Below, piece by piece: positions 1 to 9,869 of a stretch of DNA of 10,616 bases. Positions within the stretch are counted from its first letter, which is position 1; each line of letters opens with the position of its first letter. The stretch comes from Dictyoglomaceae bacterium (GTDB taxonomy: Bacteria > Dictyoglomota > Dictyoglomia > Dictyoglomales > Dictyoglomaceae), in the NCBI GenBank assembly GCA_026417425.1, contig JAOADF010000047.1, positions 1 through 10,616 on the forward strand. Reading direction: 5' to 3'. Below the pieces are notes generated by a model. The model did not search any database. It saw nothing but the letters and a program-made list of their open reading frames with translations, and was not told the DNA's origin. Both the position numbers and the translations under genes were made by a program.

Positions 1-1236
1 TCCTTTTGCTTTAAGAATACTTAAAGTCCTCTGCATTTCATTATAGACAATCATTAATCCTTCATCTACTCCCATGCCAGGTTTTGCTAAAATTTGATCC
101 GCTTGAGTTGCTAGAGCAATATGAACTGAAATTTGTGCTGATCTATCAGTCTCATTACATGTTCCTCCTACATAAGCCCCTACATTATTATTCTTACAAA
201 ACAAAACTGCTTCTATAGAGTTATGAATACTTCCTAAAACAGGAGTTTTTATTTGAATCATATCTACAGCTTCTGCATTAACAAATTCTTCTATATCTTC
301 TAAACTATTACACCATTCATCTGCAACTATCTCTACATTTATACCTTTTTCTTTTAATTTTCTTCTTAATTTCCCTAAATATTCAACTTGTCTCTCTTTA
401 CTTTCTAAATCTAATGGTCCTTCAATCCTTAATTTGTGAGGATAAGCAATTCTTTCTAATATAGAAAAATATTCCGCTATTTCTTCTAAATTATTCTGGA
501 AAGCTAATCCGATAGTTCCATAAACATCAATATGAAATATGGGCTTATAATTTTCTCCTGCTAAAATTTTTACTCTTTCTTTTAACCAACCTAAATATTC
601 TATCAATTTTTCTCCTCTCCAACCCAATTTAGTTTCCACATTATTTATTAATGCATGAGGCAAAACATCAACTCTTTTTATAATCATCTTATCCGCATTG
701 ATATACCTATCATCTCCTGATTGGCAAAAGATAGGTATAGATTTTAGGATAATAGGAAGATTGTATTCTTCAGCAATAATTTCTGTCATAGTTTTTTTTG
801 TAGATTTTGCAAAAGCATCAAGAATAGCTTGGGTTATTCCATATCTTAATGCGGAATGCAACTTTTTACCATTTTCTTCCCAATTTTCAATAATTTCTGA
901 TAACTTTTTAAAACTTTCCCATTCTTTTTCCAAAAGAAAAGGAAAGATTTTTTTGTCTAAAATTTCTAAGAAATCTTTTGCCCTAAATAATGGCTCTCTT
1001 CCTCCCGCACCAGAATACTGAATGGCAGAGCAATCTCCATAAGCCATACATCCGTTTTCTAAGATAAAAATTATGGATAAACTTTCTCCCTTTTGTCTTA
1101 TCCCTTCATAACCAGGAGTTAGGGGAACACCTCTATATGCAAAGCCATCTTCTCGAGCACCTGCTTTTATAGCCTGTTGATCATCAAAATAAAATCCTGA
1201 TAATCCAATAGAATATAATGCAGATTTTAATTTCAT
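1..1236 (-). CDS. mal: Methylaspartate ammonia-lyase, partial at 3' end
   Basis: Enzyme of the enolase superfamily that removes ammonia from (2S,3S)-3-methylaspartate to give mesaconate, the second step of the methylaspartate route of glutamate fermentation; cytoplasmic and Mg-dependent. My translation is open for 412 codons to the window edge with no stop; the clostridial enzyme is about 413 residues, so only the last residue or so and the stop are missing. Family hallmarks are all present: LPHALINN with the His base at residue 194, metal ligands in HIDVYGTIG (Asp237), RIEGP (Glu272) and VADEWCN (Asp306), the Lys base in IQIKTP (Lys330), and GGTCNETD (358-364). Numbering is within one residue of the Clostridium tetanomorphum enzyme. 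The ATG overlaps the glmE stop as ATGA, implying translational coupling. Function is assigned with high confidence; the protein is complete apart from its extreme C-terminus. Confidence 0.95.
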   Translation of the reverse strand, partial: MKLKSALYSIGLSGFYFDDQQAIKAGAREDGFAYRGVPLTPGYEGIRQKGESLSIIFILENGCMAYGDCSAIQYSGAGGREPLFRAKDFLEILDKKIFPFLLEKEWESFKKLSEIIENWEENGKKLHSALRYGITQAILDAFAKSTKKTMTEIIAEEYNLPIILKSIPIFCQSGDDRYINADKMIIKRVDVLPHALINNVETKLGWRGEKLIEYLGWLKERVKILAGENYKPIFHIDVYGTIGLAFQNNLEEIAEYFSILERIAYPHKLRIEGPLDLESKERQVEYLGKLRRKLKEKGINVEIVADEWCNSLEDIEEFVNAEAVDMIQIKTPVLGSIHNSIEAVLFCKNNNVGAYVGGTCNETDRSAQISVHIALATQADQILAKPGMGVDEGLMIVYNEMQRTLSILKAKG

Positions 1237-2696
1237 TTTTTCATCTCTTTCTTTGGTCTTCCAATAAGTCTTCCTTTACTAATAGCATATATATCATCAA
1301 GAACCATTTGAAAACTTACAGATCTTCCTTCAAACTTAGCCCTTTCCTCAATCTTTTCTCTATGAAAATCCTTTATATCGGAAGGAATAGGTAAATTTCC
1401 AAAATCAAAAAATCTAATAGCACCGTTATTATCTCTTATTGGCATAATCCTTCCATGGGCAAATCTACTAGGAGCAAAGGGTACATCTAAAACTCCAGAA
1501 GAAAAAGCTCTTACAGTACCAATTAAAAAATCTCCTTCTCCAAGAGAATAAACCCTATCTAAAATATTTTTTACTTCTTCTTCTATAATTTTTTCCTCTT
1601 CTTCAACAAGTTTATAATTTATAAAATATTGATTTTCTAACATTTGAAGAGTTTGTCGAGTATTTCTTAAGGCTTGGGCATTTGCTTCTTTAGTAGGAAT
1701 CCCAATAGCTTCTTGGGGAGTTTTAACAATAATCTTTGATACAGAACCTAAAAATCCTGCAATGGTACCATAAGTTATCACAGCAAAAGCTCTTGCTTCA
1801 TCTTCTGGAAATCCTCCCATCCAATGATGTAGAACTGTGGTAATATGAACATCATAATATCCGAAATTTTTAAGATATTTCTCTGTTAGTCTCTTCATAA
1901 CATTTATTGCAGCTACATCCTGAACAATATTTCCACTTTCCCCATATCCTACACTGAAACTTTTAACCCCTTGTTCTACTGCTAAAAGAGCTTCGATAAT
2001 TCCTATACTTATGGATATACACGGAGGAACTAATGTTCCAGTTAATGGTCCAAAGGATTCTCGGTTTATAACTACTCCATTTTCTGCATAATAACCCACT
2101 AAGTAATCTACATATTGCCAATAAAGAAGAGAATTTTCTAAAGGAACATCCTTTGCATAGGGTATATTATAGGTTATTCCTCCCCCTTCAAAAGACGTGA
2201 AGCCAGAACATAAGGTTATTTCTGCCAAAAGTCTTGCATCAGGAGAGCCATGCCTCACCTCTACAGGAATTTTAACATTTTCTATGATTTCCCTGCATCC
2301 TCTAACCCCATAATTTACTGCTGGAAAACCATTTAGTAAAGATCTTCCTTCTTTTAAGCTTTCATCTAATCCTAATTGGGCTTCTTTATACCTATTTTGA
2401 CGAGTATAACTATCAATAGTTGTAGGTAAAAGATCCGCCTCATTATCTTGAAGATATTTTAATAATTCTATATGTTCCTTAAGAATTGGAACTCCTGCTC
2501 TAGGCTGTAGGAGTATTTTATTCTCCTTTTCTCCAATTCTTAGAACATAATCAAATTGTTTTTCTAGAGAAAGAGATTTATGATATTCAATACCCGATTT
2601 CAAATCTACTTCTTTTCCTGTGTACCATGTATTCAGAACCTCTTCCCTCATTCTAATAAAATATTTTTCATCCCATCTCTTATTCTTTAAAACCAT
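1233..2696 (-). CDS. glmE: Glutamate mutase epsilon subunit (methylaspartate mutase E chain)
   Basis: Large substrate-binding TIM-barrel subunit of adenosylcobalamin-dependent glutamate mutase (E2S2), which rearranges L-glutamate to (2S,3S)-3-methylaspartate by a radical mechanism. Length is 487 residues against about 483 in Clostridium cochlearium. The arginine claw that holds glutamate is visible: Arg66 in LQPRAGVP, Arg99 in DSYTRQNRY and Arg148 in VEVRHGSPD. Glu170, Tyr176 and Tyr180 in the stretch FEGGGITYNIPY match the catalytic-site Glu and Tyr residues of the family. Start ATG follows AAGGAG at a 10-nt spacing, lying just after the mutL stop (14-nt gap). An earlier ATG at the Shine-Dalgarno site is out of frame. 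It sits between mutL and mal, the order known from clostridia. No truncation or missing key residue was seen. Confidence 0.96.
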   Translation of the reverse strand: MVLKNKRWDEKYFIRMREEVLNTWYTGKEVDLKSGIEYHKSLSLEKQFDYVLRIGEKENKILLQPRAGVPILKEHIELLKYLQDNEADLLPTTIDSYTRQNRYKEAQLGLDESLKEGRSLLNGFPAVNYGVRGCREIIENVKIPVEVRHGSPDARLLAEITLCSGFTSFEGGGITYNIPYAKDVPLENSLLYWQYVDYLVGYYAENGVVINRESFGPLTGTLVPPCISISIGIIEALLAVEQGVKSFSVGYGESGNIVQDVAAINVMKRLTEKYLKNFGYYDVHITTVLHHWMGGFPEDEARAFAVITYGTIAGFLGSVSKIIVKTPQEAIGIPTKEANAQALRNTRQTLQMLENQYFINYKLVEEEEKIIEEEVKNILDRVYSLGEGDFLIGTVRAFSSGVLDVPFAPSRFAHGRIMPIRDNNGAIRFFDFGNLPIPSDIKDFHREKIEERAKFEGRSVSFQMVLDDIYAISKGRLIGRPKKEMKK

Positions 2697-2710
2697 AGTA
2701 TTTCATCTCC

Positions 2711-4084
2711 TTAGTAATGGTCGATTTTTATCACATATTTTTTTAATATATTTATAGCTTTTTCAGGAAAGATTTCTGAGAGAAGTCCTATAGCAAAAAA
2801 GATGTATTCTTTATCTAAATAAATCCTTGGATTCTTAGGTTTCAATACAAAGGGATTTTTTTCATCAAATAATGCTGATTTTAATGCAGAGATATTATAA
2901 GGATTATAAACCAACGGACCTCCTGTTCCTATTAAATTTTCTACCTCTGTCAAATCCTTTCCATACTGAAGATATGTTATCCCCATAGGAGTATATAGCG
3001 GTTCTAAGTATCCGCAATGTCTTTCCACTGCAATTCTTATAGCATGATAAGATAGAACATAATCTAAAAAGAAATCCTCTTCTTTTTTCGGTAAAAAGTC
3101 TGTTTTCTCACTTAAAAATTTTACTTTTTCTTTATATGAATTTAATTCTCCTAAAAATTCTTTCCATCTTTCTTCTCCTACTATCTCCCATAAAGACAAA
3201 GCACTTACCCTTACCCCTAAATCTCCTTCTACAGTTCTTTTAACATATGGTTCAGGTAATCCCTTCCATATCACTCCAATTTCAGTTGGTCTTCCATGGG
3301 ATATAGAGCAAACATCAGTAGTTGCTCCACCTATGTCTACCAAAATTGTTTCTCCAAAAATTTTTGAGAAACTTTCACAAGCCTTTAAAACTGCTAAAGG
3401 AGTTGGCATTATAATTCCATCCAAAAAATTTTTAACTTTTTCTAAGCCCTTAGCATGTATTAAACGAGAGATAAAAATTTCCCTAATACAATTTTGTACA
3501 GGACTAATGTTTAACTTTCCAAATTCTGGCATAACATTTTCGGTAATCCATATTTCTTTTACTGATTTTTCAAATATTTTCTCTATTTCCTTTGCTATTA
3601 TTCTATTTCCAGCATAAATTATAGGAATATTTATAGGGATTTCTGAGATTTTTTGTGCATTAATTAAAGGATAATATTTATTTCCACCATCGGTGCCACC
3701 CGCTAAAATAACTAAATCAGGTTTCAAATCTTCCATTTCTTTTAGATCATTATCGGTTAATTCGAAACTATAAGTTTTGATTACCTTTCCTCCAGCCCCT
3801 AAAGCAGCTCTTTTTGCAGCTTCTGCAGTTAAATCGGGAACAAGGCCAACTGCCACTATTTTTAGTCCACCCTTGGCACTGCTACATGCCCTCTTAATTT
3901 CGAATCCTTCTAATTTCTTTCCCGTTTGTCTATATATTTCATCTAAGACATATTTTACACCAATCGTTACATCAATATTTACAGTGGATGGTACTTTTGC
4001 TTTCCCTATAATCTCTTCCTTTTCTAAATCAAAAGCAATAGCTTTTGTAAAGGTACTTCCTAAATCCAAAAATAATCCTAACAT
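2711..4084 (-). CDS. mutL: MutL, glutamate mutase-associated ATPase (reactivation protein)
   Basis: A 457-residue protein of the GlmL/MutL family (unrelated to the mismatch-repair MutL), with the actin/Hsp70/sugar-kinase ATPase fold. Members are encoded between the two glutamate mutase subunits and are thought to reactivate the mutase by exchanging damaged cobalamin. Seen in the sequence: phosphate-1 motif FLDLGSTFTK (5-14), the family signature CSSAKGG (67-73), LAGGTDGG (127-134), phosphate-2 motif VDIGGATTDV (249-258), and a GTGGP motif (386-390) fitting the adenosine loop. No signal peptide or membrane span. The ATG lies 4 nt after the glmS stop in an A-rich run and has no convincing Shine-Dalgarno of its own, so it probably depends on translation of glmS. 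The biochemical role is inferred from family and context; the family assignment is firm. Confidence 0.93.
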   Translation of the reverse strand: MLGLFLDLGSTFTKAIAFDLEKEEIIGKAKVPSTVNIDVTIGVKYVLDEIYRQTGKKLEGFEIKRACSSAKGGLKIVAVGLVPDLTAEAAKRAALGAGGKVIKTYSFELTDNDLKEMEDLKPDLVILAGGTDGGNKYYPLINAQKISEIPINIPIIYAGNRIIAKEIEKIFEKSVKEIWITENVMPEFGKLNISPVQNCIREIFISRLIHAKGLEKVKNFLDGIIMPTPLAVLKACESFSKIFGETILVDIGGATTDVCSISHGRPTEIGVIWKGLPEPYVKRTVEGDLGVRVSALSLWEIVGEERWKEFLGELNSYKEKVKFLSEKTDFLPKKEEDFFLDYVLSYHAIRIAVERHCGYLEPLYTPMGITYLQYGKDLTEVENLIGTGGPLVYNPYNISALKSALFDEKNPFVLKPKNPRIYLDKEYIFFAIGLLSEIFPEKAINILKKYVIKIDHY

Positions 4085-4088
4085 TTTT

Positions 4089-4502
4089 TTATTTTAAACC
4101 CAAATCTTTCTTTAAATCTTCAATAACCTCATCAGGAGTTGTTTTAGGAGGATAAACTCTATGAAATCCTAATTCCTTAAATCTTTTTACAACTTCATCC
4201 CAATTCTTTTTTCCAATTCCTAAATTTCCTCCTATATAAAGAAGGATATCTTCTAATCCTGCTTCTATAAGTTTTTCTTTAAATCCTTGACAATCTAATT
4301 CTGCATGCCCATAAAGAGATGACACTAATATTGCTCTTGCACCTGTTTCAAGGGAGGCTTTTATAAAATCCTCTTGAGAAGATAAAACCCCAATATTTAT
4401 AACTTCAAATCCAGCAGATCTTAAAGCATAATCTAAGACTCTAAGACCTACTGCATGCACATCAGAACCTATAACTCCAAGAACAATAGTTCTTTCTCCC
4501 AT
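4089..4502 (-). CDS. glmS: Glutamate mutase sigma subunit (cobalamin-binding)
   Basis: Small B12-binding subunit of glutamate mutase, 137 residues, the normal length for the family, with a Rossmann-like flavodoxin fold. The base-off/His-on cobalamin motif DxHxxG is present as Asp14-Val-His16-Ala-Val-Gly19; His16 would be the lower axial cobalt ligand, at the same number as in clostridial proteins. Further nucleotide-tail contacts are the SSLYGHAE segment (61-68) and GGN (91-93). The ATG follows GAGGG with a 9-nt spacer, 12 nt after the peptidase stop. It is the first gene of the glmS-mutL-glmE-mal block. There is no room for a cobalamin riboswitch upstream, so any B12 control must act further up the operon or not at all. 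Confidence 0.96.
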
Positions 4503-6399: not shown

Positions 6400-8022
6400 T
6401 CACCTTTCTATATTATATTTTTCTATTGCTTCCTTTATTTTTTCTACAAAATTATTTTGAAATTCCTCAGAAGTTAACAAAGCTCTTTCTTCATTATTAC
6501 TTAAAAATCCCATCTCTACAATAACCCCTGGAATGGGAATTCTAGATAGAACATAGAATTTTCCCTGTCTTAAAGTTCTAACGGAATAATATTTTGAAAG
6601 AACTTCTGAAAAAGTTTTAGCTAAAGGAAAAGAAAAATCAGTAGCATAAAAGATTTCTATTCCTTTGATTGTTGGAGAAAGAGCTGCATTAGTATGAATA
6701 CTTAAATAAATAACTGTTTCTCCCAAGATATTTTCTTGCAAATAGTTTTTCACAAACTTTACTCTGTCATCTAAACTTATAGTTTCATCTTTTTCTCTAA
6801 GTAGTATAACATTATATCCACTATCCTTTAATATTTTCGAAAGCTTTAGGGAAACTTGAAGATTTAAATCCTTTTCTAATATATTTGAATATATAGCTCC
6901 AGGATCACTTCCTCCATGTCCAGGATCAATAATAACTGAAATATTTTTTGTTTTTTGTTCTCTGTTAGGTGTTTCCTCTATTTCTATAGGGAAATTTATC
7001 TTTAAAGTATCTGTAAAAATTTCTTCATTGAAAATAGTCGATGTGTAAAGATCGAAAACAACTCTTAATATTTTAGGATTAATACTTTGGAAACCTAATC
7101 TTATTTTTTCTACAGGACTTTCGTTTACAAAAATAGTATTTGTATTGAGAGTTGTAGCGTTAGGAAAATCAAAAAAAATTCTTTCAGGATATCTCAGAAT
7201 ACCTTTGGAATAAGTGAAAGCTGAATTAAAAATCAGATCAATGGAAATATTTTTTTCATTTTTTAACCATTTTATATCTACAAGTTTTATCTCTAAAGGT
7301 TCTTCAACCTTTTCTTTAGAAAAATTTAAAACTACCTGTCCCTTATCTGAAGTTATTTTTGGTTCTAAAAAATCTTTAGAAAATTCCAAAACTATTCTGA
7401 CCACATAAGGTTCAGTAGAATATTGAGAGTATCTAATATTTTTTATTCCAGAAATTTTAGGAAAAATTTCACCCTTTTCTATTAAAATACAGTTATACAA
7501 ATCAAAAACCAACCTATTTGGTTCTTTTAATTTAAAACTCTTATATTCTATTTTATCTTCAGATTTTATTTTGAAAAATACTCTTTCCTCTTTCCAGTTA
7601 ACCTCATCTATAATTTGCACTATATAAATATTTTTTTCTTTTATAATTACTCGATATCCCAATAAAGAGAAAAGAGACTTTATAGGAAGAAAAACATCAC
7701 CATTTATAGATAAAGGAGCTTCTAAAAGTTTATAACTTTTTTCATTAATAGTACATTCTTTTCTTCCAATATTTCCCAGGAAAAATTCCTTTGAGTTTTT
7801 GAAAATAAAAATTTTCTCTCTTTCTATTTTAAAAGAGGAATTTAAGAGGGAAGAAATCAAAGTAATAGGTAGATAGATTTCTTGTCCTTTAAAATAAGGG
7901 GTAACAATAATTTTATCTTTTTCATTGGGAAAGTATAAAGAAAAAATTTCTTCTCCATAAATGGAGAAGATCAGAAGAAAAAGAATAAAGACTATTAAAA
8001 ATATAAAAAATTTTTTTAAAAT
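6400..8022 (-). CDS. Exported N-acetylmuramoyl-L-alanine amidase (stalk + 2 AMIN-like + Amidase_3)
   Basis: Zinc amidase that cuts the bond between N-acetylmuramic acid and L-Ala in peptidoglycan, outside the cytoplasmic membrane. In the 540-residue form: residues 1-22 are a Lys-Lys start plus a long hydrophobic run (signal peptide or anchor); about 38-138 resembles the copper-amine-oxidase-N-like stalk domain; about 141-236 and 244-346 are two AMIN-like beta domains that usually bind wall polymer; about 361-537 is Amidase_3. Zinc ligands are His369 (DPGHGG), Glu383 (LEKDLNL) and His443 (SIHTNA), with catalytic Glu503 in VEMGFLSN. The open frame extends upstream to an ATG at 8094, but those 24 codons lie in the tmRNA 3' end. 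The first plausible start is ATT at 8022, 7 nt after GGAGG; there is no other in-frame ATG before the catalytic Glu region and no early GTG or TTG. Domain calls are firm, the start is inferred. Confidence 0.9.
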   Translation of the reverse strand: MLKKFFIFLIVFILFLLIFSIYGEEIFSLYFPNEKDKIIVTPYFKGQEIYLPITLISSLLNSSFKIEREKIFIFKNSKEFFLGNIGRKECTINEKSYKLLEAPLSINGDVFLPIKSLFSLLGYRVIIKEKNIYIVQIIDEVNWKEERVFFKIKSEDKIEYKSFKLKEPNRLVFDLYNCILIEKGEIFPKISGIKNIRYSQYSTEPYVVRIVLEFSKDFLEPKITSDKGQVVLNFSKEKVEEPLEIKLVDIKWLKNEKNISIDLIFNSAFTYSKGILRYPERIFFDFPNATTLNTNTIFVNESPVEKIRLGFQSINPKILRVVFDLYTSTIFNEEIFTDTLKINFPIEIEETPNREQKTKNISVIIDPGHGGSDPGAIYSNILEKDLNLQVSLKLSKILKDSGYNVILLREKDETISLDDRVKFVKNYLQENILGETVIYLSIHTNAALSPTIKGIEIFYATDFSFPLAKTFSEVLSKYYSVRTLRQGKFYVLSRIPIPGVIVEMGFLSNNEERALLTSEEFQNNFVEKIKEAIEKYNIER

Positions 8023-8034
8023 CTTAAATCCTCC
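8020..8034 (-). promoter_or_regulatory. Strong Shine-Dalgarno with ATT start codon (amidase)
   Basis: On the minus strand GGAGGA (8034-8029) is followed by TTTAAG and then ATT at 8022-8020, a 7-nt spacing counted from GGAGG. Translation from ATT gives two lysines and a hydrophobic segment, exactly what a signal peptide needs. No ATG, GTG or TTG occurs in this frame near the site. ATT starts are rare and best known from infC, where they make expression sensitive to initiation factor 3. Confidence 0.6.
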
Positions 8035-8111
8035 ATAATAAAAAATTGGTGGAGGCGGCGGGAATTGAACCCGCGTCCAAAGAGTAGGAGCCAAAAACCT
8101 CTACAGGCTTA

Positions 8112-8170
8112 GCGGAAGTTTTGACTTTTCGGAATCTATAGACTCCCCTCCGCAGGATTCTATAGATTCC
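8112..8170 (-). repeat. PK4 of tmRNA: 12-bp perfect inverted repeat plus loop pairing
   Basis: On the plus strand GGAATCTATAGA (8131-8142) and TCTATAGATTCC (8159-8170) are perfect inverse complements, a 12-bp stem with a 16-nt loop. The loop bases TCCGC (8149-8153) pair with GCGGA (8112-8116), forming the second stem of an H-type pseudoknot at the position of tmRNA PK4. Because the core TCTATAGA is a palindrome, the two arms are also a 16-nt direct repeat with 14 matches (8131-8146 and 8155-8170). Confidence 0.85.
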
Positions 8171-8278
8171 TATCCCATTTTCTTTCCCCCTCTCTTATGG
8201 GAGTCAAGAGGGGTAGCTGACTAATCTTACGCCCTTCTTAACCCTGCCAGCCCAGATTAAGAGGACGTAGCTGCTAGA

Positions 8279-8308
8279 TTAAGCAGCTAATGCTAAATTT
8301 GTGTTGGC
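8279..8308 (-). other. tmRNA tag reading frame (ANTNLALAA, stop TAA)
   Basis: The frame GCC AAC ACA AAT TTA GCA TTA GCT GCT TAA encodes ANTNLALAA, ending in the LAA degron recognised by ClpXP-type proteases. It lies 11 nt after PK1, and an A at position -4 from GCC matches the conserved base that sets the resume codon. With the alanine carried by tmRNA the full tag would be AANTNLALAA. The stop codon sits in the loop of an 8-bp hairpin (8268-8275 with 8282-8289), the usual helix 5. An ACT or AGA codon further upstream could in principle be the resume codon, so the exact N-terminus is less sure than the C-terminus. Confidence 0.85.
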
Positions 8309-8397
8309 AGTTCTTTTTTGCCGTTGTTTTATGAGGTAACGGCACCTCAACCTGCAGTCTTTGACCCCCAAACTCCCTGTCGAAACCATTCGCCCCC

Positions 8398-8859
8398 TCA
8401 ATATTTTATTTTATAAGCTCTTTCTAATTCTCTTCTTTCAGCTCTTTCTGCCAAATCTCTTCTTTTATCGTATAATTTTTTACCCTTTGCAAGTCCTAAC
8501 TCAACTTTTGCCCATCCTCTTTCATTAAAATATATAGAAAGAGGTATCAATGTCAAGCCCTTTTCTTTAACCTTTCCTATAAGACGAGCTATTTCATCTT
8601 TATGCATTAAAAGTTTTCTCGGCCTTTTAGGATCATGATTATATATATTTCCCTTATCATAGGGACTTATGTGAAGATCAAATAACCACAATTCTCCTTT
8701 GTCAATATCTGCATAACTATCAACAATACTTACTTTTCCCTCACGAAGAGACTTAACCTCAGTACCTCTCAGAGCAATTCCTGCCTCATAGGTTTCTAAT
8801 ATAAAATAATCATGTTTTGCCTTTCTATTAATAGTCACATATCTTTTTTCCTTTTTCAT
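8398..8859 (-). CDS. smpB: SsrA-binding protein SmpB
   Basis: RNA-binding partner of tmRNA, needed for its alanylation stability and for loading it into the A site of stalled ribosomes. The 153-residue length is normal. Recognisable blocks are the N-terminal NRKAKHDY segment, YEAGIALRGTEVKSLR (24-39) of the OB-fold core, HDPKRPRKLLMH, and the basic C-terminal tail GKKLYDKRRDLAERAERR that folds in the mRNA channel of the ribosome. The ATG at 8859 has no Shine-Dalgarno; an extended -10 promoter stands just before it. Its TGA stop (8400-8398) is immediately followed by nucleotide 1 of tmRNA. Genomic linkage of smpB with ssrA is common, but zero spacing is not something I would expect. Confidence 0.98.
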   Translation of the reverse strand: MKKEKRYVTINRKAKHDYFILETYEAGIALRGTEVKSLREGKVSIVDSYADIDKGELWLFDLHISPYDKGNIYNHDPKRPRKLLMHKDEIARLIGKVKEKGLTLIPLSIYFNERGWAKVELGLAKGKKLYDKRRDLAERAERRELERAYKIKY

Positions 8860-8865
8860 ATTTTA

Positions 8866-8874
8866 ATTATATCA
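8866..8874 (-). promoter_or_regulatory. Extended -10 promoter for smpB-ssrA, possibly leaderless
   Basis: In the 20-nt gap between galE and smpB the minus strand reads TGATATAAT: a consensus TATAAT (8871-8866) with the TG extension. Six bases separate it from the smpB ATG, so a start point at the normal distance falls on or within a base of the A of ATG. No good -35 box is seen (at 18 bp upstream TGGTTA matches 3 of 6). No ribosome binding site lies in the gap. This fits a leaderless mRNA, but is a sequence-only inference. Confidence 0.5.
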
Positions 8875-8879
8875 CAAGA

Positions 8880-9869
8880 TTAATCGGGATAACCATTAGG
8901 ATGATTCTTCAACCATCTCCAGTGAGATTCAATAATCTCTTCTAAATCACTATATTGAGGATTCCAGCCTAAATCTTTTTTAATTTTATTAGAACTTGCT
9001 ATCAAAATCGCAGGATCTCCCGCTCTTCTTCCTACTTCTTTTACAGGAATTCTTTCTCCTACAACTTTTTCAGCAGTCTTTATAACTTCTCTTACTGAGA
9101 AACCTCGAGAATTTCCTAAATTATATATATCAGATCTCTTTCCAGATAATAAAGCTTCTAATGCTAATATATGTGCAGAAGAAAGATCTGATATGTGAAT
9201 ATAATCTCGAATACATGTTCTATCAGGAGTAGGATAATCACTTCCATAAATCTCCACATAATCCCTTTGTCCAAGGGCGGTTTTTAAAACTAATGGTATA
9301 AGATGAGTCTCAGGATTATGATCTTCTCCTAGCTCTCCCTCAGGATCACATCCTGCTGCGTTAAAATATCTTAAAGATATATATTTAATACCAAAGATTT
9401 TTTCATACCATTTCAGAATTTCTTCGAACATTAGTTTTGAAGAACCATAAACATTTGTAGGAATTGTTGGATGGTCTTCAGGAATTGGAATAATCTTAGG
9501 CTCACCATATACTGCAGCAGTAGATGAAAATATTAAAAACTTAATATCATATTTGACCATACAGTCTAAAAGATTTAATCCTCCTAAGATATTATTTTCA
9601 AAATATTTTCCTGGATTGGCCATGGATTCTCCCACCAGACTTGCTGCAGCAAAATGTAAAACTCCATTAATCTTAAAGCTTTCAAAAATTTCCTCTAAAG
9701 AATCTTTATCCTTTAAATCTACTTTATAAAAATATTTTGACTTTACAGCGGATCTATGTCCTTTTTCTAAATTATCAATTACAATTACATCATAACCTTT
9801 CTTAATTAAATCTTTAACCACATGACTTCCAATATACCCCGCACCACCGGTTACTAATAATTTTTCCAT
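8880..9869 (-). CDS. galE: UDP-glucose 4-epimerase
   Basis: NAD-dependent short-chain dehydrogenase-type epimerase interconverting UDP-glucose and UDP-galactose, giving galactosyl donors for polysaccharide. The 329-residue protein has the NAD-binding TGGAGYIGSH (7-16), Asp32 at the end of beta-2, the SSTAAVYG block with Thr117, the catalytic YxxxK as Tyr141/Lys145, and RYFNAAGCDPEG followed by GEDHNPETHLIP, the classic GalE substrate loop. Its ATG overlaps the stop of the Wzz-type gene as TAATG and follows GGAG at an 8-nt spacing (9881-9878), within the upstream gene, so the two are probably coupled. Linkage to a chain-length regulator points to exopolysaccharide or surface-glycan synthesis rather than galactose catabolism. 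Related 4-epimerases acting on UDP-GlcNAc cannot be excluded. Confidence 0.93.
   Translation of the reverse strand: MEKLLVTGGAGYIGSHVVKDLIKKGYDVIVIDNLEKGHRSAVKSKYFYKVDLKDKDSLEEIFESFKINGVLHFAAASLVGESMANPGKYFENNILGGLNLLDCMVKYDIKFLIFSSTAAVYGEPKIIPIPEDHPTIPTNVYGSSKLMFEEILKWYEKIFGIKYISLRYFNAAGCDPEGELGEDHNPETHLIPLVLKTALGQRDYVEIYGSDYPTPDRTCIRDYIHISDLSSAHILALEALLSGKRSDIYNLGNSRGFSVREVIKTAEKVVGERIPVKEVGRRAGDPAILIASSNKIKKDLGWNPQYSDLEEIIESHWRWLKNHPNGYPD

Follow-up and report, generated by a model that had tools for sequence, protein, structure and literature searches.

The way in which cells balance SmpB against tmRNA is, to our knowledge, not settled. The locus described here raises the question in a concrete form. 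In the window, the whole 10,616-nt stretch of Dictyoglomaceae DNA that was analysed, the smpB reading frame runs directly into the tmRNA gene, and an earlier note on this DNA had proposed that RNase P processing of a shared transcript would leave an smpB message ending exactly at its stop codon, on which tmRNA itself might act, so that SmpB synthesis would carry a built-in feedback.

The identity of both genes was established. The window protein was a full-length member of the SmpB family (Pfam PF01668, 213.6 bits against a cut-off of 27, profile positions 2-142 of 143) with 94% identity to an SmpB labelled Dictyoglomaceae, and the K-x-[KR]-Y C-terminus was present in 35 of the 36 best SmpB matches, the window's own included, P0036 being incomplete. 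The RNA gene was identified as tmRNA by its match to Rfam RF00023 (207.3 bits against a gathering threshold of 47, model positions 1-374). Its 5' end was firm, as ARAGORN and Rfam were concordant and the acceptor stem GGGGGCG/CGCCTCC was paired at 7/7 positions from G1, followed by ACCA. The spacer between the smpB stop codon and the tmRNA on the minus strand was 0 nt, which bore out the geometry given in the earlier note and left no room for a terminator. By the same geometry, as the note had reasoned, cleavage by RNase P before G1 would produce an smpB message ending at UGA. Both genes belonged to one compact minus-strand run in the order galE, smpB, tmRNA, amidase and further genes (Table 1), in which the other gaps ranged from -71 to +24 nt with the amidase start taken as ATT.

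Table 1. Positions of genes and predicted elements around the smpB-tmRNA junction of the window.
Feature	Position	Strand	Details
galE-like epimerase gene	8880..9869	minus	upstream neighbour, 20 nt before smpB
Predicted extended -10 of smpB promoter	8866..8874	minus	TGATATAAT; 6 nt before ATG
smpB	8859..8398	minus	153 aa; ATG 8859-8857, TGA 8400-8398; ORF list
Predicted internal promoter	8529..8556	minus	-35 TTGACA 8556-8551, 16 nt, -10 TATATT 8534-8529
Inferred tmRNA precursor 5' leader	8398..8522	minus	3' portion of smpB, roughly 125 nt; from promoter position
smpB stop codon TGA	8398..8400	minus	abuts tmRNA G1 (8397); sequence
tmRNA (ssrA)	8397..8047	minus	ARAGORN and Rfam RF00023; tag ANTNLALAA; CCA encoded
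N-acetylmuramoyl-L-alanine amidase gene	6400..8022	minus	downstream neighbour of tmRNA; likely ATT start, 24 nt past CCA

The junction was compared among eight Dictyoglomota, the window and seven further genomes, with phylum names taken from record or protein labels and from SmpB identity (92% and 89% to the window in the two of these genomes that came from the wide sample described below). The spacer was 0 nt in four of the eight (window, L376, L377 and L378) and 1 nt in the other four (L373, L374, L375 and L379), counts which are not independent as the genomes are related. Conserved zero spacing, for which the earlier note had suggested looking in related genomes, was ruled out in its exact form; it was the near-zero junction of 0-1 nt that was conserved, in 8/8. 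The spacer was still 0-1 nt where divergence of the smpB DNA reached 26%, and the stop codon varied among TGA, TAA and TAG, as did the flanks.

Within the smpB frame of the window, a promoter-like site with 11 of 12 consensus matches and 14.8 bits was detected on the codons for LTLIPLSIYF (all promoter scores derived from a matrix of the E. coli type). As is characteristic of the sigma-70 type, it comprised two hexamers at a distance within 16-18 nt and was kept beyond codon constraint. The pattern TTGAC[AT]-16-TATA[TC]T, at 11 bits or more, was located 131-132 nt before the tmRNA in seven of the eight Dictyoglomota, and the Leu codon at the -35 position was TTG in all eight, ranking first of 106 degenerate columns with an invariant residue. 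When whole columns were permuted with relatedness kept, the observed mean best score in Dictyoglomota was reached in 2 of 400 permutations. Synonymous shuffles of the window smpB gave p=0.035 for the site, a control that is only partial for the LTxxPLxxYF motif, which itself favours promoter-like letters. L376, despite its zero spacing, had no internal site of at least 11 bits (best 9.8). In L373 and L375, another promoter-like site of 12.9 bits was observed 280 nt before the tmRNA. Because a sigma-70-type promoter is predicted to sit inside smpB, the tmRNA is probably made mostly on its own transcript. The earlier note had named a separate tmRNA promoter inside smpB, with no shared transcript, as the finding that would speak against its idea; half of this was encountered, namely the likely internal promoter in 7/8.

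The shared transcript that the note presupposed also appears likely. The motif TGATATAATT, of which TGATATAAT is the window's version, was found in the gap before smpB in 8/8 Dictyoglomota, and this conserved, predicted promoter element suggests that some transcripts carry both smpB and tmRNA. No good -35 was found for it, and the mean score of the region was reached by 3 of 60 shuffles, thus not clearly above them. A side observation concerned the smpB start (8857-8874), where TATAAT ends 6 nt before ATG with no Shine-Dalgarno-like sequence between. Going by the position of the predicted -10, the smpB message may be leaderless or nearly so, and a leaderless message, once cut by RNase P, would be left with next to no untranslated sequence on either side of its reading frame.

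From the positions, their conservation and the promoter-like sequences, we infer promoter use, an RNase P cut and a fate of the message, which together make up a two-promoter model with a probability of roughly 0.6. The smpB and tmRNA genes would be packed head to tail in the compact run, with the sigma-70-type promoter within the smpB codons as the main source of tmRNA, and RNase P, by which the tmRNA 5' end is processed according to a review (PMC3985003), would remove the short tmRNA leader precisely at the smpB stop codon. The second promoter before smpB, together with read-through from galE, would give some transcripts with both genes, on which the same cut would generate an smpB message ending at the stop codon and, with its short 5' leader, close to a bare reading frame, comparable to the tRNA punctuation of mitochondria. 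In termination assays, reading by a release factor requires only the stop codon. Normal termination, by RF2, would therefore be expected to dominate on the cut smpB message, and the UGA at its end keeps it from being a non-stop message, since the codon in the A site stays readable by a release factor. A true non-stop smpB message needs trimming or overlap; if a few bases were lost from the 3' end, one would arise and lead to tagged SmpB as a side branch. In vitro, trans-translation is less efficient the more mRNA lies beyond the decoding region, as stated in a review (PMC3929946), so that ribosomes on the cut message could also be tmRNA substrates. The earlier view of the truncated message as such a substrate held for the geometry of the cut, but not for the UGA in the A site, which a release factor can read. 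As for the built-in feedback, the geometry and a likely shared transcript spoke for it, while the internal promoter, the inexact zero and the retained UGA spoke against it. In the window, feedback is possible but probably weak, because a stop codon would remain in the A site.

A more direct arrangement was revealed in Atribacterota, the phylum of G001, in which 38 of 50 genomes had a tmRNA and 37 pairs were evaluated after exclusion of L193 at a contig end. Among these pairs, 17 overlapped, 4 were spaced at 0 nt, 13 at 4-17 nt and 3 at 36-42 nt. In all 17 overlaps the acceptor stem was paired at 7/7 positions, and the overlapping genomes formed one clade with a support of 0.988 in a single-locus tree, in which the phylum itself was not recovered as a clade. 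The spacing was -11 in 16 of the 17, where GGGGGCGATAG of the tmRNA, together with the T preceding it, encodes the W-G-R tail of SmpB and the TAG. In L179, the SmpB frame extended 36 nt into the tmRNA, adding 11 residues and a stop inside it.

The predicted promoters differed accordingly between the two kinds of Atribacterota. In the survey of the internal site, from which 24 of 84 loci, none of them from Atribacterota, were excluded as not matching the motif expression, the codon site scored at least 10 bits in 17 of the 20 non-overlapping Atribacterota (joint test 0/200), and TTG was the codon in all 17 that have Leu there, ranking first of 80 columns. The overlap clade was mostly without it (at least 10 bits in 2/17, joint test reached by 175/200; Fisher p about 1e-5 for the contrast). 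The contrast may represent a single evolutionary event, because it rests on one clade, and the internal site was presumably lost, not gained, in the overlap clade. Just before smpB, about 490 nt before the tmRNA, an extended -10 TGNTATAAT was present in 17/17 of the overlap clade, scoring at least 11.5 bits with a -35 in 12/17. The region before smpB had a mean of 12.24 against 8.15 in this clade, reached by 0 of 60 shuffles, and 7.57 against 6.72 in the non-overlapping Atribacterota, reached by 1 of 60. The likely promoter is thus placed inside smpB where the genes are non-overlapping and before smpB where they overlap. As judged from these sequences, shared transcription of smpB and tmRNA looks obligatory in the overlap clade, and the smpB stop codon is expected to be lost there when the tmRNA matures. 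The predicted feedback is more direct in this clade than in the window, and the case imagined in the earlier note is better embodied by it.

The spacing was also determined in a wide sample of 96 genomes outside Dictyoglomota and Atribacterota, consisting of 16 of the 30 wide-sample loci and 80 more, all from the better-matching part of the listed SmpB table. A tmRNA downstream of smpB on the same strand was found in 25 of the 96, with 71 having none on the stretch examined, and the spacing was 1 nt or less in 2 of the 25 pairs (L416 with an overlap of -8, and another at 1 nt). The difference from Dictyoglomota, with 8/8 at 0-1 nt, was beyond chance. Among pairs from the Syntrophomonadaceae-labelled genome's phylum, spacing was 0 in 3/26 and 3 in 6/26 (best 30 of 58 tmRNA-bearing genomes), and in that of the Binatia-labelled genome an overlap occurred in 3/20 pairs (-32, -32 and -25; best 29 of 51). 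No pair below 8 nt was found among 4 in the phylum of the CPR1-labelled genome (best 29 of 53 tmRNA-bearing genomes) or among 21 in that of the Actinomycetota-labelled genome (best 29 of 55). An smpB stop inside the tmRNA, as in Carsonella, was accordingly found in 17/37 Atribacterota, 3/20 pairs of the Binatia-labelled genome's phylum and L416 (1/25). The acceptor stems were paired in these overlaps outside Atribacterota (L217, L218 and L222 at -25, -32 and -32, and L416 at -8). Weaker overlap cases were L062 (-1) and L066 (-7, doubtful), loci labelled Roseburia and Acetatifactor; L066 was rejected as a firm overlap, its stem being paired at 7/7 but followed by C rather than A, with an Rfam start 8 nt later than that of ARAGORN. 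A general rule linking tight spacing to an internal promoter was also rejected, as single-genome p<=0.05 was obtained in 0/13 in the Syntrophomonadaceae-labelled genome's phylum, where the joint test (0/200) gave a small effect (9.75 vs 8.56 bits).

Zero spacing was present in 12 pairs of at least four groups and has therefore probably arisen more than once. The base before the RNase P site was a purine in all 12 (9 A, 3 G), because zero spacing forces the A or G of a stop codon into this position; in pairs with spacing of at least 2 nt it was T in 95/147, the commonest base there. The first spacing survey came from an SmpB protein scan with 80 kept loci, mostly Clostridia and no Dictyoglomota. 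From it a mixed set of 46 pairs was formed, with 42 of these 80 loci and 4 of 5 TAG-pattern loci; pairs at least 400 nt apart were excluded, and L001 was counted under Atribacterota. In a pattern search, TAG was common near the tmRNA 5' end in the family of G009 (46/200 genomes). Viral contigs yielded no SmpB match better than 59%, and these matches entered the first spacing survey alone. SmpB homologues with 39-47% identity were observed on IMG/VR contigs of 343-482 kb (L108, L114, L117, L118, L150, L154 and L156) and are perhaps virus-encoded.

Other explanations were weighed against the two-promoter model. Compaction alone could give the smpB-tmRNA distance, because the gene run is closely packed elsewhere too; the spacing would then simply follow from a compact genome, in which gaps are short or negative, and would have no effect. 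The range of spacing, 0-1 nt within Dictyoglomota and 0 to 42 nt in the 20 non-overlapping Atribacterota pairs, agrees with this, but the retention of 0-1 nt in 8/8 despite smpB divergence, and of a forced purine where T is commonest, makes plain compaction unlikely. A single promoter might instead serve tmRNA and smpB together, with the internal promoter-like site arising by chance. The overlap clade of Atribacterota seems to work in this way, and the presence of TGATATAAT before smpB in 8/8 Dictyoglomota and the want of a strong internal site in L376 are consistent with it, yet the joint synonymous-column test in Dictyoglomota (2/400) and the same codon site in 17/20 non-overlapping Atribacterota render it highly improbable for the window.

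We know of no tagged SmpB or mapped RNA ends at the junction. A built-in feedback in the full sense, in which smpB messages are truncated at the stop codon as tmRNA matures, tmRNA-SmpB engages the ribosomes at that point and high rescue activity lowers SmpB output, would draw on a geometry that forces truncation on any processed shared transcript, on the 0-1 nt spacing and the promoter-like element before smpB in 8/8 Dictyoglomota, and on the possibility that a message reaching no further than its stop codon is a trans-translation substrate (PMC3929946), with precedents in the Carsonella overlap (PMC4131195) and in arfA (PMC10107115). The stop codon remaining in the A site and a likely internal promoter that would uncouple much of the tmRNA from smpB translation both argue against it, and we consider it decidedly unlikely as the explanation of the window.

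The concept of feedback is not new, since it was described for Carsonella ruddii, in which smpB overlaps tmRNA in half of the strains and which was called an interesting feedback situation (Hudson, Lau and Williams 2014, PMC4131195), with tmRNA maturation making a non-stop smpB message. The survey of 2031 complete bacterial genomes in that paper reported the overlap only in Carsonella. Carsonella (PMC4131195) resembles the window in that smpB immediately precedes tmRNA, on the same strand and without a spacer. It differs in that the TGA of the window ends just before G1, where the predicted cut would leave the stop intact, and that the window has an SmpB with its full tail and a likely internal promoter. 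In E. coli arfA, as described in PMC10107115, the message of a rescue factor can likewise be cut, so that trans-translation represses it; that cut is made by RNase III upstream of the stop, whereas the predicted RNase P cut in the window follows the stop immediately and affects the message of SmpB itself. Human mitochondrial tRNA punctuation, as portrayed in PMC9674279, is similar in that an excised tRNA-like RNA adjoining the frame sets the 3' end of the message, a geometry that the tmRNA abutting the reading frame would reproduce in the window. The window is bacterial, its stop codon is encoded, and the RNA to be cut out has the product of the preceding gene as its partner protein. For Streptomyces coelicolor, PMC2635970 states, citing a manuscript in preparation, that most tmRNA comes from its own promoter beside smpB; the proposed tmRNA promoter of the window lies instead within the smpB frame.

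Among the open-licence papers listed, judged mostly by title or abstract opening, PMC4131195 was the only one found on such an smpB-ssrA junction; in this literature no paper on smpB in Atribacter was found, and Dictyoglomus with smpB matched only a phylogenomics method, by its listing. The window junction is ordinary in parts, namely a tight gene run and a known concept, and the comparison is good and testable. What the present analysis adds is the additional overlap lineages, the conserved near-zero junction in Dictyoglomota and the differing place of the promoter. Tight or overlapping junctions were retained in clades with genomes of 1.1 to 3.1 Mb, which are not reduced endosymbionts. The anecdote thereby becomes a testable comparison of which lineages pay with smpB message for tmRNA maturation and whether the SmpB level responds. 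Tentatively, and on balance rather unlikely, smpB-tmRNA might be a self-limiting transcription unit in several lineages, in which tmRNA maturation and rescue activity set SmpB synthesis and keep the partners balanced. If so, tmRNA excision would trim the smpB message to a bare reading frame in Dictyoglomota, and in the overlap clade, with the internal promoter largely absent and a single one ahead of smpB for both genes, each tmRNA would cost an smpB message its stop codon.

The amidase gene downstream of the tmRNA has an apparent ATT start (8022-8020), 7 nt after GGAGG (feature 8020-8034) and directly followed by a signal-peptide-like stretch. ATT was found at the matching position in L377, L378 and L379 (4/4 of the subgroup with the window), with TTG and ATG present as well in L377, several codons downstream; the start in L373-L376 was TTG or ATG, not ATT. 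Further downstream in the same gene run, a methylaspartate mutase cluster (B12-binding subunit, MutL and MutE) was located at 1233-4502.
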